This document shows positions 32,027 through 36,468 of a stretch of DNA of 49,041 bases, one piece after another. The position numbers were made by a program, and so were the translations under genes. The notes beneath the pieces were generated by a model, which had not been told where the DNA came from, ran no database searches, and saw only the letters and a program-made list of their open reading frames with translations. Each line of letters opens with the position of its first letter. Position 1 is the first letter of the stretch. The stretch is from NCBI GenBank assembly GCA_944327465.1, contig CALVHH010000013.1:1-49041 (forward strand), written 5' to 3'. This stretch comes from an uncultured Clostridia bacterium. Its GTDB lineage: Bacteria > Bacillota > Clostridia > Christensenellales > Borkfalkiaceae.

Positions 32027-32701
32027 TTGGCAATTTCTGTATTCGGAAGGAACAGGTACGCAGATCCCGAAGCGCGCCTCATCTCAGACAAGCTTTTTTA
32101 CGTAATAATGTCGGCAACGCTGCTCTTCGGCTTTGCCGTCAACGCGGCAGAGGTGTTTTTCCTCGCAGATTGGATAGCCGGCTGGAATCCCGTAGTATTT
32201 TTCATAGTCTATCTCGTTATGGCTGTGGCGGGCATACTCATAAACGCGTTCAGCCGCAACCCCGTAGTAAGTTTTATCGGTTACTGCCTGGTCGTGCTGC
32301 CCATAGGCGCAATGCTCGCGCTCGTCGTGCCCTCATACGCCTTCGACGTCGTGCGCTCGGCGTTTGCCGTAACAACGCTGCTCGCCGTCGTCTTCGGGCT
32401 GCTCGCCGTGCTCTATCCCGCATTCTTTGCCTCTATGTGGCGCGTGCTTGCCGTCAGCCTGTTCATAGCGCTCATCTGGGCGCTCGTCAATATGGTGACG
32501 GGCTTTCTTTCCAGCACCATGGTCTGGCTCGACTGGCTCGTAGTGCTCGTGTTCTGCTGCTACGTCGGCTTCGACGTCTCCCTGGCAAGAAACCGCCCCA
32601 AGACGCTCGATAACGCCGTCGACAGCGCGTGCGGCCTCTATCTCGACCTGATAAATCTCTTCTTGAGGCTGCTCATCATATTCGGTAGAAACCGTGACTG
32701 A
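32027..32701 (+). CDS. Bax inhibitor-1/YccA family membrane protein
   Basis: 224 residues with about six to seven membrane helices. The C-terminal LYLDLINLFLRLLIIFGR is the hallmark of the BI-1 family, whose bacterial members leak calcium or interact with FtsH. The TTG start is chosen because AAGGAG lies 7 bp before it and the reading fits the family's cytoplasmic N-terminus. The 3' end overlaps the next gene by 8 bp. Confidence 0.88.
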   Translation: MAISVFGRNRYADPEARLISDKLFYVIMSATLLFGFAVNAAEVFFLADWIAGWNPVVFFIVYLVMAVAGILINAFSRNPVVSFIGYCLVVLPIGAMLALVVPSYAFDVVRSAFAVTTLLAVVFGLLAVLYPAFFASMWRVLAVSLFIALIWALVNMVTGFLSSTMVWLDWLVVLVFCCYVGFDVSLARNRPKTLDNAVDSACGLYLDLINLFLRLLIIFGRNRD

Positions 32702-33077
32702 CTGCAGGCTGACCATCCGATCCCGGGGACGCGGCTGGGAGAGCAATCACATCCTCCCCGCGGACATGCAGTTTTCCGAAGGTTCGGTGAGCATATTCTA
32801 TAAGCTCGAAGGCGACGACTGCACGCTGACGCTGTCGCCCCGCCGCGCCGAACAGTTGCGCTCGGGCGAAGTGCCGCTCAGGCTGACATTTGTCCCGGGC
32901 GAAGATACCGTCTGCATCGTTGGCACGGGCGGGCTGCGCGGCGGTTACAGGATACACACAGATGTATTCAACTGCATTTTCGGCAGGGCGGGAGTCTCTG
33001 CCCGCATAGAGTACTTCGCGGGCGACGACCGCGAACACGTCAAACTCGACATCCGCGCCATCGCCTCGCGGCGGTGA
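32694..33077 (+). CDS. small beta-rich protein, possibly DUF1934/YwiB-like
   Basis: 127 residues, predicted mostly beta strand. The succession of short strands (VSIFYKLEG, CTLTLSPR, LRLTFVPG, GYRIHTDVFNCIF, SARIEYFAG, VKLDIRA) resembles the calycin-like DUF1934 barrel, but identity is low and I hold this loosely. GTG start, overlapping the BI-1 gene. Its position in a tight run of genes, with codon use like its neighbours, supports a real gene. Confidence 0.6.
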   Translation: MTDCRLTIRSRGRGWESNHILPADMQFSEGSVSIFYKLEGDDCTLTLSPRRAEQLRSGEVPLRLTFVPGEDTVCIVGTGGLRGGYRIHTDVFNCIFGRAGVSARIEYFAGDDREHVKLDIRAIASRR

Positions 33078-33107: not shown

Positions 33108-33764
33108 ATGAAAATAGAATACTTGGGGCATTCGTCCTTCAAACTTACCGAAAGCACGGGCACCAGCGTGGTGACCGACCCATATGACGACAGCATAGGC
33201 TATCGCATGCCTTCGGTCTCAGCCGACGCCGTCACCGTGTCACATCACCATTACGACCACGATGCCGTCGCAAAAGTCAAGGGCGATCCCGTCGTTCTGG
33301 ACAGCGAAATCGGCTTTACGCTCAAGGACAGCGTCGACATAAGTTCAATAAAGAGCTTTCACGACGACAGCCGCGGCAAAAAACGCGGCGAAAACATAAT
33401 CTTCAAATTCCGCATGGACGGGCTGGACGTCTGCCATCTCGGCGACCTCGGCGAGGACTGTTCTTCCGACCTCATCGAAATGATACTGCCCGTCAACGTC
33501 CTGCTCATTCCCGTCGGCGGCAACTACACCATCGACAGCAAAATGGCAAAGGAATACGTCGACAGGATAATGCCGGATATCGTCATACCCATGCACTACC
33601 GGGCAAAGGGCTGCAAGCTCGATATCGACAAGGTCGACGACTTTTTGGATGAGTTTGACGGCGAAAACGTCTGCATAGTCGAAGAGGGCAGCTGCATCGA
33701 AGTTTCGCGTGACGATCTCGACGGCGGTCAGACCACTATAATAGTTATGGAGCAGGTGCAATAA
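33108..33764 (+). CDS. MBL-fold metal-dependent hydrolase
   Basis: 218 residues of the UPF0173-like metallo-beta-lactamase group. The metal-binding HHHYDH (46-51) follows the family pattern; CHLGDLG and PMHYR supply further ligands. The substrate is unknown. AAGGAAA precedes the ATG. The stop codon TAA is directly followed by the GTG start of the Rho-like gene, so the two are translationally coupled. Confidence 0.9.
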   Translation: MKIEYLGHSSFKLTESTGTSVVTDPYDDSIGYRMPSVSADAVTVSHHHYDHDAVAKVKGDPVVLDSEIGFTLKDSVDISSIKSFHDDSRGKKRGENIIFKFRMDGLDVCHLGDLGEDCSSDLIEMILPVNVLLIPVGGNYTIDSKMAKEYVDRIMPDIVIPMHYRAKGCKLDIDKVDDFLDEFDGENVCIVEEGSCIEVSRDDLDGGQTTIIVMEQVQ

Positions 33765-35192
33765 GTGGGACGCATTTTAGACGAGCTTACTAAAAAACTC
33801 AATATGAGCGGCATACATCCCCTTCGTCAGCTCGGCAGAGCGGTGGGGGTGTACAGCCCTACAAACAAAAAGAAGGAAGAGCTCATTGCCGACATTCTGG
33901 CAATAGCCACCAACCGCGCCGACCCCATAGTCAACAATCACCGCGGCGCTCCGCCCAAGTCGGAAGACTACGACAAGGCGCTCCTTGCCGACGTCGAGCG
34001 CTGCCGCCGCTACTATGCGGGACTTACGCTCGCCGAAACCGAAGACGAACTTCCGCCCGCCAGCCTGACCGTGTCTTCGCCCGACTGCGGCGATGACGAA
34101 CTGCTCTGCTCGGGCATTCTCGAAAACGAGGACAAGTACTGGTTCGTGCGCACACGCAATATGCAGATATCTTCGGGCGCCGACGTGTTCGTGCAGTCGG
34201 CGTTCATAAACCGCTTCAAGATGCGCACGGGCGACTTTGTAGTCTGCAAGGCAAAGCGGCGCGAAGGCGAAAACCCTTCGGCAACCTATATAGTGTCCGT
34301 AAACGGAGTGTCGCCCGACGACCTCCGCCGCGTTCCGTTCGAAAATTTCACGCCCTGCTATCCCTCCGAGCGCATAAGCCTCGAATACCCCGGCTGCTCT
34401 CTCACCGAAAGGGTCATCGATTTGTTTTCACCCGTGGGCAAGGGACAGCGCGCCATAATATTTGCGCCGCCCCTTTCGGGCGCGACTTCCATGCTCAGGA
34501 GCATTGCGCTCTCCATAGTCAAAAACCATCCGCAGATAAACGTAGTCGCCGTGCTCATCGACGCCAGACCGGAGGAGATGACCGACTTCCGCCGCGCTGT
34601 CGCCGGTGCGGAAATTGCCTGCTCATCCTTCGACAGGGGCTCCGCGCACCACATACACACGGCAAAGCTTGCCCTCGAGCACGCCAAGCGCCTCGTAGAA
34701 TCGGGCAGGGACGTCGTGCTGCTCATCGACAGCCTCACCGCGCTCGTCCGCGCCTATCTCAATTCGGGCAGGTCGTCCCAGAGCATGCCCGACGCCCAGG
34801 CGTTCATCGAATCCAAGCGCTTTATCGGCGCCGCCCGCAATACCGAAGAGGGCGGTTCGCTCACGATAATAGGCACGGCAATGCTGGGCTGCAGCCCTAC
34901 GGACGAAGCCGTCCGCGACGAGTTCGGCCGCATAATAAACATGCAGATAGTACTCTCGCGCGAGCTCGCCGTCGAAGGCATATATCCCGCGTTCGATATG
35001 GCGTTCTCGGGTGCCCGGCAGGAAGACCTGCTGCTCACCAAGGCGCAATGCTCGGCGGCTTCCGCCGTGCGTTCGGCTGTAGCCCGCGGCATGAGCTTCA
35101 AGGGCGTGCTCGATGCAATGGCTGCGTCGAACGGCAACGACGATTTTGTCGAAAACGTATCCGGATATCTCGAAAGGTTTAAAAATGATTGA
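33765..35192 (+). CDS. Rho homologue with inactivated ATPase site
   Basis: 475 residues aligned along the whole length of Rho: SAP-like N-domain (about 15-50), a short insertion, the cold-shock RNA-binding domain (about 112-200) and the RecA-type ATPase (about 205-460). The ATPase is altered. Walker A reads APPLSGATS (234-242) where Rho has APPKAGKT, so the essential lysine is Ala240. The catalytic glutamate of DERPEE is Ala267 (DARPEE). The R-loop lysine of GSKMDE is replaced (CSPTDE). Walker B aspartate (Asp322) and the arginine finger (Arg418) remain. A paralogue that binds RNA or joins Rho rings without hydrolysis is the simplest reading. It overlaps obg by 8 bp. Confidence 0.88.
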   Translation: MGRILDELTKKLNMSGIHPLRQLGRAVGVYSPTNKKKEELIADILAIATNRADPIVNNHRGAPPKSEDYDKALLADVERCRRYYAGLTLAETEDELPPASLTVSSPDCGDDELLCSGILENEDKYWFVRTRNMQISSGADVFVQSAFINRFKMRTGDFVVCKAKRREGENPSATYIVSVNGVSPDDLRRVPFENFTPCYPSERISLEYPGCSLTERVIDLFSPVGKGQRAIIFAPPLSGATSMLRSIALSIVKNHPQINVVAVLIDARPEEMTDFRRAVAGAEIACSSFDRGSAHHIHTAKLALEHAKRLVESGRDVVLLIDSLTALVRAYLNSGRSSQSMPDAQAFIESKRFIGAARNTEEGGSLTIIGTAMLGCSPTDEAVRDEFGRIINMQIVLSRELAVEGIYPAFDMAFSGARQEDLLLTKAQCSAASAVRSAVARGMSFKGVLDAMAASNGNDDFVENVSGYLERFKND

Positions 35193-36468
35193 TAAAAACG
35201 TATTCACCGACAGGGTGCGCATAACCATAAAATCTGGCGACGGCGGCGACGGAATGAATTCCTTCAAGTCGTTCAAGGGCAAGCCTGCCTGCGGCCCCGA
35301 CGGCGGCGACGGCGGCAAGGGCGGCGACGTGTACCTGCTTGCCGACCGCTCCATGAACGACCTCATTTGCTTCCGCTTTACAAACAAGTATGTCGCGGGC
35401 GACGGCGAGCGCGGCGGCACCAACCGCTGCTCGGGCAAGGGCGGCGCCGACGTCGTAATAAAAGTACCGGTCGGCACCATAGTGCGCGACTACGAAAGCA
35501 AGACGATTATCTGCGACATGTTCCGCGACGGCGATAAAAAGCTCATCGCCGAAGGCGGCAGGGGCGGCAAGGGCAACGTCCGCTTTACCACCGCCCGCAG
35601 GCATGCGCCCAACTTTGCGCAGAAGGGCGAAAAAACTACCGAGCACATCCTGCTTTTAGAGCTCAAAGTCATAGCCGACGTCGGCATAATCGGCTTCCCC
35701 AACGTGGGTAAGTCTACTCTGCTTTCAAAAATATCTGCCGCCCGCCCCAAGATAGCCAACTATCACTTCACCACGCTCTCGCCCAATCTCGGCGTCGTCA
35801 GCCGCTACGAACAGTCCTTCGTGGCGGCCGATATACCCGGTCTCATCGAGGGCGCCTCGCAGGGCGCGGGGCTCGGTCACGACTTCTTAAAGCACATCGA
35901 GCGCACGCGCATGCTTCTGCACGTCGTCGATATTTCGGGCATGGAGGGCAGGGACCCCGTCGAAGATTTTAAAAAAATCAACGAAGAGCTCAAAAACTAC
36001 TCTCAAAAACTCGCCTCGCTCCCCCAAGTGATCGCCCTCAACAAGTGCGACATCCCCGGCAGCGAGCAAAACATATCCGCGTTCGAAAGCGCATATGGCG
36101 GCGCCTTTCCCATATATCGCATCGCCGCCGTCACCGGCGAGGGGACGGGCGAGCTCATCGACGGCATATTCTCGGTATTAAAAGATTTGCCTCCCGTTCA
36201 GCCCGTCGAAGCCGATGAAAGCTTCACATACCGCCCGAGCGGAGACCTCGATTACGAAATCTTCGTCGATGAAAACGGCGCCTACGTCGTCGTGGGCACG
36301 CTCGTCGATATGCTCTGCCGCAACGTGTCCCTGAACGACCCCGACTCGATGGCGTATTTCCAAAAGATACTGCGCGATAAGGGCGTCATATCCCGTCTTA
36401 CCGCAATGGGCATAAACGAGCGCGACACCGTCATAGTCGGCGACGTGGAATTTGAATTCGTAAGCTGA
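35185..36468 (+). CDS. obg: Obg/CgtA GTPase
   Basis: 427 residues: glycine-rich Obg domain (about 1-160), G domain with GFPNVGKST (170-178) and NKCD (286-289), and a C-terminal OCT domain (about 350-427). It acts in 50S ribosome maturation and the stringent response. Start at 35185 inside the end of the Rho-like gene, with AAAGGT upstream. It lacks the usual rplU-rpmA neighbours. Confidence 0.95.
   Translation: MIDKNVFTDRVRITIKSGDGGDGMNSFKSFKGKPACGPDGGDGGKGGDVYLLADRSMNDLICFRFTNKYVAGDGERGGTNRCSGKGGADVVIKVPVGTIVRDYESKTIICDMFRDGDKKLIAEGGRGGKGNVRFTTARRHAPNFAQKGEKTTEHILLLELKVIADVGIIGFPNVGKSTLLSKISAARPKIANYHFTTLSPNLGVVSRYEQSFVAADIPGLIEGASQGAGLGHDFLKHIERTRMLLHVVDISGMEGRDPVEDFKKINEELKNYSQKLASLPQVIALNKCDIPGSEQNISAFESAYGGAFPIYRIAAVTGEGTGELIDGIFSVLKDLPPVQPVEADESFTYRPSGDLDYEIFVDENGAYVVVGTLVDMLCRNVSLNDPDSMAYFQKILRDKGVISRLTAMGINERDTVIVGDVEFEFVS

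Follow-up and report, generated by a model that had tools for sequence, protein, structure and literature searches.

The window analysed here is a stretch of 49,041 nucleotides of contig CALVHH010000013.1 (assembly GCA_944327465.1) from an uncultured Clostridia bacterium, and the subject of this work is its gene for the transcription terminator Rho, which lies between a metallo-beta-lactamase (MBL)-fold hydrolase gene and obgE (Table 1). The open reading frame (ORF) encodes a full-length Rho: solved Rho structures are matched across residues 111-465 (E about 1e-71), the RNA-binding domain PF07497 and the RecA-like domain PF00006 both score over their cut-offs, and residues 10-465 align with the Rho profile TIGR00767 at 334.2 bits. 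This is under the cut-off of that model (509), as is the score of an intact congener (locus L007, 475.5 bits); the score with a second Rho profile, NF006886, is over the cut-off (327.6 bits against 315). The PF07497 match bears out the primary RNA-binding domain that a preliminary description, made from the letters alone, had recognized.

Table 1. Features of the rho locus, in coordinates of the window
Feature	Position	Strand	Remarks
rho orthologue lacking a functional ATPase site	33765..35192	+	475 aa; GTG start immediately 3' of the stop of the MBL-fold gene
N-terminal arm, residues 1-75, with RGAPPKS motif	33765..33989	+	most conserved segment within the genus's dead clade
Primary RNA-binding domain, residues 116-184	34110..34316	+	PF07497
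Degenerate Walker A, APPLSGATS	34464..34490	+	Ala240 for the P-loop Lys, Leu237 for K181
Ala267 replacing the catalytic Glu	34563..34565	+	DARPEE for DERPEE
Walker B Asp322, retained	34728..34730	+	alignment to E. coli Rho
Q-loop, altered and shortened, secondary RNA-binding site	34758..34799	+	LNSGRSSQSMPDAQ
Arg418, arginine finger, retained	35016..35018	+	alignment to E. coli Rho
MBL-fold hydrolase gene	33108..33764	+	PF13483; upstream neighbour of rho
obgE	35185..36468	+	PF01018; downstream neighbour of rho
ORF without Pfam or NCBIfam match	32694..33077		127 aa; flanked by the MBL gene and a gene of the Bax1-I family

Read against Rho of Escherichia coli K-12 (L214), the protein has lost residues for ATP binding, for hydrolysis and for the secondary RNA site. 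The Walker A lysine K184 is replaced by alanine (codon GCG, 34482-34484), as is the catalytic glutamate E211 (codon GCC); R269 has become Ala326, the R-loop lysine K326 is now Pro378, and K336 and R353 are Gly388 and Gly405, respectively. T185, R212 (Arg268), the Walker B aspartate D265 and the arginine finger R366 are retained. On all the residues that the preliminary description had named in this full-length homologue (the two alanines, the missing R-loop lysine, Asp322 and Arg418) the alignment agrees; the description was silent on the Q-loop, which reads SGRSSQSM where E. coli has SGKVLTGG, Ser340-Met341 standing for Gly287/Gly288, two glycines that are usual in the intact loci described below (105/105 and 104/105). 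According to PMC4499133, the E211A substitution in E. coli Rho abolishes hydrolysis while ATP binding and oligomerisation survive. The window protein lacks the P-loop lysine in addition to this glutamate and, on the strength of its residues and of that precedent, should not hydrolyse ATP, as had been proposed. It is true that the genome is a draft in 23 contigs. Nevertheless, since several separate codons are replaced while the frame stays intact, and 98 other genomes show comparable yet not identical losses, chance or error is unlikely; the codons are clean, a sequencing slip had already been discounted on that ground, and we attach practically no credence to an artefact of assembly or sequencing.

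Five relatives from named collections, 55-64% identical, comprise two Candidatus Coproplasma species and three Clostridia metagenome-assembled genomes. Coproplasma belongs to the GTDB family Borkfalkiaceae, order Christensenellales, according to PMC8035907, and we infer from the matches of these relatives that the genus of the window (g1) is Coproplasma, with its family and order. A Rho match was obtained in 148 of the 151 sampled genomes of the family and in 84 of the 93 of the genus. From 205 family genomes we read 207 Rho loci residue by residue, one per genome except for two each in G058 and G181; five of the 148 family genomes, with weak matches only (G011, G033, G037, G044, and G093), and three of the 84 in the genus, with fragments (G171, G172, and G214), were left unread. 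A locus was called lost, or dead, if at least one of six residues (K184, T/S185, E211, R212, D265, and R366) was gone, which gave 105 intact (live) loci, 99 lost and 3 partial, the latter standing outside every lost or intact count. Among the lost loci, E211 and R366 are each gone in 87 and K184 in 33; K184 or E211 is missing in 92, both are missing in 28, including the window Rho, and a single one of the six residues is missing in nine. Every intact locus has a Q-loop segment of 25-26 residues; in 57 of the 99 lost ones the segment is shorter than 22, and all but one of the lost ORFs (98/99) run to at least 400 residues from stop to stop. The two loci of G181 (L167 and L176) are both intact, L176 being nearly identical to locus L175 of G224, and probably reflect strain mixing.

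Intact and lost Rhos occur side by side within eight genera, and catalysis was therefore lost at least eight times if it is never regained and if GTDB genera are monophyletic. Within the genus, a tree of MBL and ObgE built from 78 loci (4 of the 82 were too short) requires five state changes, at least three of them forced by starred branches, and contains one clade of 39 species, every one of which is dead. The window Rho falls outside that clade, in a small group of seven dead and four live loci, where its sister is L151, whose Rho is intact (support 92); close relatives carry GKT in Walker A. It is worth adding that genus g2 (e.g., L137-L145) contains extremely degenerate Rhos, several with an unrecognizable Walker A, alongside three intact ones, and that in genus g3 (L094-L135) the catalytic glutamate is gone from all 17 Rhos read (glutamine in 14, arginine in 3) with the P-loop lysine retained, a combination that might allow ATP to be bound but not hydrolysed.

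The window gene is the only Rho detected in its assembly (G000; 1.44 Mb, 92.3% complete): no PF07497 match other than 33765-35192 was found in this incomplete assembly, and the remaining PF00006 matches are one ABC-type ATPase and, on contig C1, a pair of genes for ATPase subunits that we read as V-type from their size and position. Likewise, genomes with a lost Rho yielded no second full-length Rho among the matches of the genus or, for the family, among the matches listed (to about E 5e-9). The gene is an orthologue of ordinary rho, because within the genus live and dead loci share the order MBL-rho-obgE: a same-strand MBL homologue lies upstream at 80 of 82 loci (34/34 intact, 46/48 lost) and obgE downstream at 81 of 82 (33/34 intact, 48/48 lost). 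In other genera the MBL homologue lies upstream, again on the strand of rho, at 88 of 122 loci (41/71 intact, 47/51 lost), and obgE was found beside rho at none of the 122. The preliminary description had taken the gene for a paralogue, which does not accord with a sole Rho at the normal rho position of the genus. It had further supposed that a non-hydrolysing copy might poison or tune a canonical Rho ring, an idea to which the resemblance of the lost residues to those of dominant-negative Rho mutants lends some appeal. With one Rho in the assembly and no canonical one beside it, no further full-length Rho among the matches listed for dead-Rho genomes and a location at the locus of live rho, we hold such a role to be very improbable. 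The absence of a detected canonical rho and the GKT of close relatives thus overturn the role as paralogue or poison, and leave the observation on the residues standing.

The dead gene is still under selection, because neutral evolution, that is, a ratio of nonsynonymous to synonymous substitution rates (dN/dS) of 1, is rejected in 23/23 dead-dead pairs (twice the log-likelihood difference, 2dlnL, at least 14). These pairs were not picked: they are all those with counted dS below 1.2, analysed along with the 30 closest intact pairs. The dead pairs, several of which are saturated with an unbounded branch length, have a median dN/dS of 0.122 (range 0 to 0.575, the highest being L181/L194), and the intact pairs one of 0.091 (highest 0.213). 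In a hand-picked set of 11 dead and 6 live pairs, which omits some pairs with counted ratios of 0.3-0.67, dN/dS was 0.098-0.221 for the nine dead-dead pairs from the genus (2dlnL against 1 of 31-243), 0.098 and 0.138 for the two from other genera, and 0.029-0.086 for the six live pairs; the gap between live and dead is smaller than these hand-picked pairs imply. The four closest dead pairs (L089/L195, L086/L198, L057/L186, and L190/L191) fall at 0.108-0.221, the dead ATPase domain is itself constrained (0.063-0.207 in 11 pairs), and ObgE in eight of the hand-picked dead pairs gives 0.002-0.050. On the branch of the window rho, which also covers time preceding the loss, dN/dS is 0.20 (sister 0.125, outgroup 0.045) and a value of 1 is rejected (2dlnL 12.2); ObgE on the branch of the window genome stands at 0.027. 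The constraint on dead Rho is clear, if somewhat relaxed. A pseudogene is rejected: a dN/dS of 1 is excluded in the dead pairs and on the window branch, and the frames are long and open.

What the dead protein keeps was gauged on columns at least 95% invariant across 33 live loci from the genus (leaving aside the odd "intact" locus L058), by the share retained in a 40-locus dead set that omits the eight lost loci of the genus outside the all-dead clade. The N-terminal arm (residues 1-75), whose helices are presumably Rho_N-like, keeps a mean of 0.83 (22 columns), the linker 0.61 (9 columns) and the ATPase domain 0.46 (129 columns). The arm differs from the ATPase domain at p 5e-7, from the RNA-binding domain at p 7e-4 and from the linker at p 0.07, values that treat columns and species as independent, which neither is. 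The same order of domains is seen family-wide, with just four qualifying N-terminal columns. In short pairs other parts can evolve more slowly than the arm, whose dN/dS is 0.66 and 0.37 for the two closest dead pairs. GQR (171-173), PE (213-214), A304, G310, S312, and T314 are near-invariant in the ATPase domain of the dead set, as expected if the fold is retained. The arm closes on RGAPPKS, and RGRPxK-like motifs, which we take to resemble an AT-hook, occur in some Rhos from other families of the order. A loose scan that read RGAPPK as an AT-hook was dropped in favour of the alignment columns: motifs of this type turned up among live and dead loci without distinction, 28 of the 99 lost loci and 27 of the 105 intact ones went undetected, and 21-23% of shuffled sequences gave a hit as well.

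Beyond the family, 247 genomes of the order (22 of them from the family of the window) divide into 135 whose Rho passes the TIGR00767 cut-off, 67 with a weaker match, which need not mean a dead Rho given that intact Rhos of the window family (f1) also fall under this cut-off, and 45 with no match at E 1e-12. We examined 22 of the 67, which gave 23 loci: four fragments with intact motifs, one other ATPase and 18 remaining, among which the Walker lysine or the catalytic glutamate is missing in 14 by alignment reading (family f4 accounts for nine, f23 for two, f26 for two weak ones and f8 for one). The Rhos of f4 are long, 579-681 residues from stop to stop at twelve loci (L220-L225, L227, L228, L230, L233, L234, and L236), nine of which are without one or the other residue. 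In a sample of 199 genomes of the phylum, judged by score and not residue by residue, 144 are over the cut-off, 31 have trace matches, presumably to other ATPases, 21 have none, and the three in between are the window genome and two genomes with a split rho, G469 and G513. In G469, rated 100% complete, rho is split over two adjacent reading frames (G469:C1:133231-134452). Within the sampled genomes, then, it is this order that is marked by a Rho kept at full length in degenerate form.

The window therefore carries the sole detected Rho of its genome, orthologous, catalytically disabled and under selection, and the loss of motor residues in many relatives that keep the protein suggests that Rho has been converted from a motor to something else. 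It is tempting to hypothesize that the dead protein would still fold and perhaps oligomerise as a ring, that it would be unable to translocate along RNA or to act as a classical terminator of transcription, and that it would serve as a static scaffold, binding nucleic acid through its N-terminal arm and its RNA-binding domain. We consider it rather probable that the window gene is the single rho of the cell at its ancestral locus, its motor lost and its protein retained as such a non-hydrolysing scaffold. The wider proposal, that Rho in Borkfalkiaceae and further families of the order has been turned many times into a scaffold working through its arm, and hence that pseudo-Rho is a new class of protein, seems to us evenly balanced.

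Several observations weigh against a retained scaffold. The dead copies are the more relaxed ones by the medians given above, with overlapping ranges, and in the hand-picked set the medians are 0.129 for dead and 0.044 for live pairs. The RNA-binding domain keeps just 0.51 of its live-invariant columns in the dead set (34 columns), and RNA binding may accordingly be weakened. A Rho match is missing in 9 of the 93 genus genomes; in the four of these whose rho locus could be read (G161-G164, loci L283-L286) the gap between the MBL match and obgE is 20 to 215 bases, too short for rho, which was cleanly deleted there and is hence dispensable in these congeners. The tree places of two further loci, L291 and L292, were unused, the ObgE frame being wrong in L291 and perhaps in L292. 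Live, dead and deleted states are thus all met at one locus within one genus, and together with the faster evolution of dead genes and the genomes of the order that lack a Rho match this feeds the main rival explanation, a slow decay towards deletion in which Rho-dependent termination is no longer needed, the catalytic residues go first, and the gene lingers between other genes for a time, a misfolded Rho being harmful, before it is deleted. Yet the dN/dS of dead pairs is well below 1, the 39 species of the all-dead clade still have long ORFs, and the constraint is focused on the N-terminal arm, which selection against misfolding alone would not lead one to expect; we regard such a decay as unlikely, if not lightly set aside.

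Indirect readouts of termination likewise bring the scaffold no support. Following an idea from PMC13323073, we measured the coding-strand purine excess by running our own gene caller on stretches of 20 kb; on short loci the differences between live and dead had been small and inconsistent. In the genus the excess is alike in 10 intact and 11 dead genomes (medians 0.058 for the intact and 0.066 for ten dead ones, 0.055 for the window; p 0.17), and at silent sites purine is slightly higher in the dead ones (p 0.027), opposite to the prediction. In ten intact genomes from other families the excess is 0.080, above that of intact genomes of the genus (p 0.002); in f4, five dead genomes have a lower median than two intact ones (0.006 and 0.042), which fits the prediction in a tiny sample, and three f23 genomes without a Rho match reach 0.138, contrary to it.

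The conservation of NusG was considered in the same spirit. The four genomes with a deleted rho score lowest in the genus for full-length NusG, their KOW motifs being changed in two different ways; 30 live-invariant KOW columns are kept at 0.90 in 13 dead-Rho genomes against 0.70 in these four, and the NGN domain drops too (0.97 against 0.86). Such a pattern, along with the retained RNA-binding domain and overall homology, could be taken to mean that dead Rho terminates or represses without hydrolysis, by binding RNA polymerase or NusG and trapping the elongation complex, as in an allosteric action of Rho. The signal is, however, unspecific: in families of the order other than that of the window, the NusG arginine persists in 12/12 genomes that gave no Rho match and the FGR motif in 10/12, and we rejected NusG conservation as a readout of Rho. 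Moreover, termination by Mycobacterium tuberculosis Rho requires a hydrolysis-competent site, according to PMC4499133, and no NusG match was found in the incomplete window assembly, perhaps through an assembly gap (87 of the 93 congeners searched, the window genome counted, have one). We therefore give termination without hydrolysis little weight beside a retained scaffold.

Rho is usually counted either as present and working or as absent. NF006886 labels the window gene as Rho in spite of its non-motor residues, and surveys of Rho-dependent termination based on gene counts are consequently wrong for such gut bacteria. If the selection reflects a function, Rho has a use independent of ATP hydrolysis that could be traced in natural replicates, the eight genera of the family with both states among the loci read; pseudo-Rho, if real, would represent a natural separation of the binding role of Rho from its motor role. 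We found no description of a catalytically dead Rho in these bacteria, or of a Rho pseudoenzyme, in the literature searched, which lay outside most subscription journals and is weak evidence of novelty.

In pseudoenzymes such as inactive kinases and pseudo-ATPases, the fold is kept, catalytic residues are lost and selection is retained, and the pattern of dead Rho is alike in these three respects. With the Rho of E. coli, Bacillus subtilis, and M. tuberculosis, the window protein shares its full-length architecture, the RNA-binding domain, the Walker B aspartate and the arginine finger, and its locus is orthologous to the intact rho of congeners; unlike them, it cannot, by its residues, be an ATP-driven motor. 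The short paralogue Rho2 (NF041509) is likewise derived from Rho and is known to NCBIfam as a second form, whereas the window Rho is the only one found, has a full N-terminal arm and scores 293 bits with that model, far below the cut-off of 628. Finally, in PMC13323073, Rho is present or lost in lineages of Bacilli, treated as two states. As in Rho-less Bacilli, the motor function has been given up here within Bacillota, and complete deletion is also encountered in the genus of the window; unlike them, the family of the window often keeps the gene, catalytically dead and under selection.
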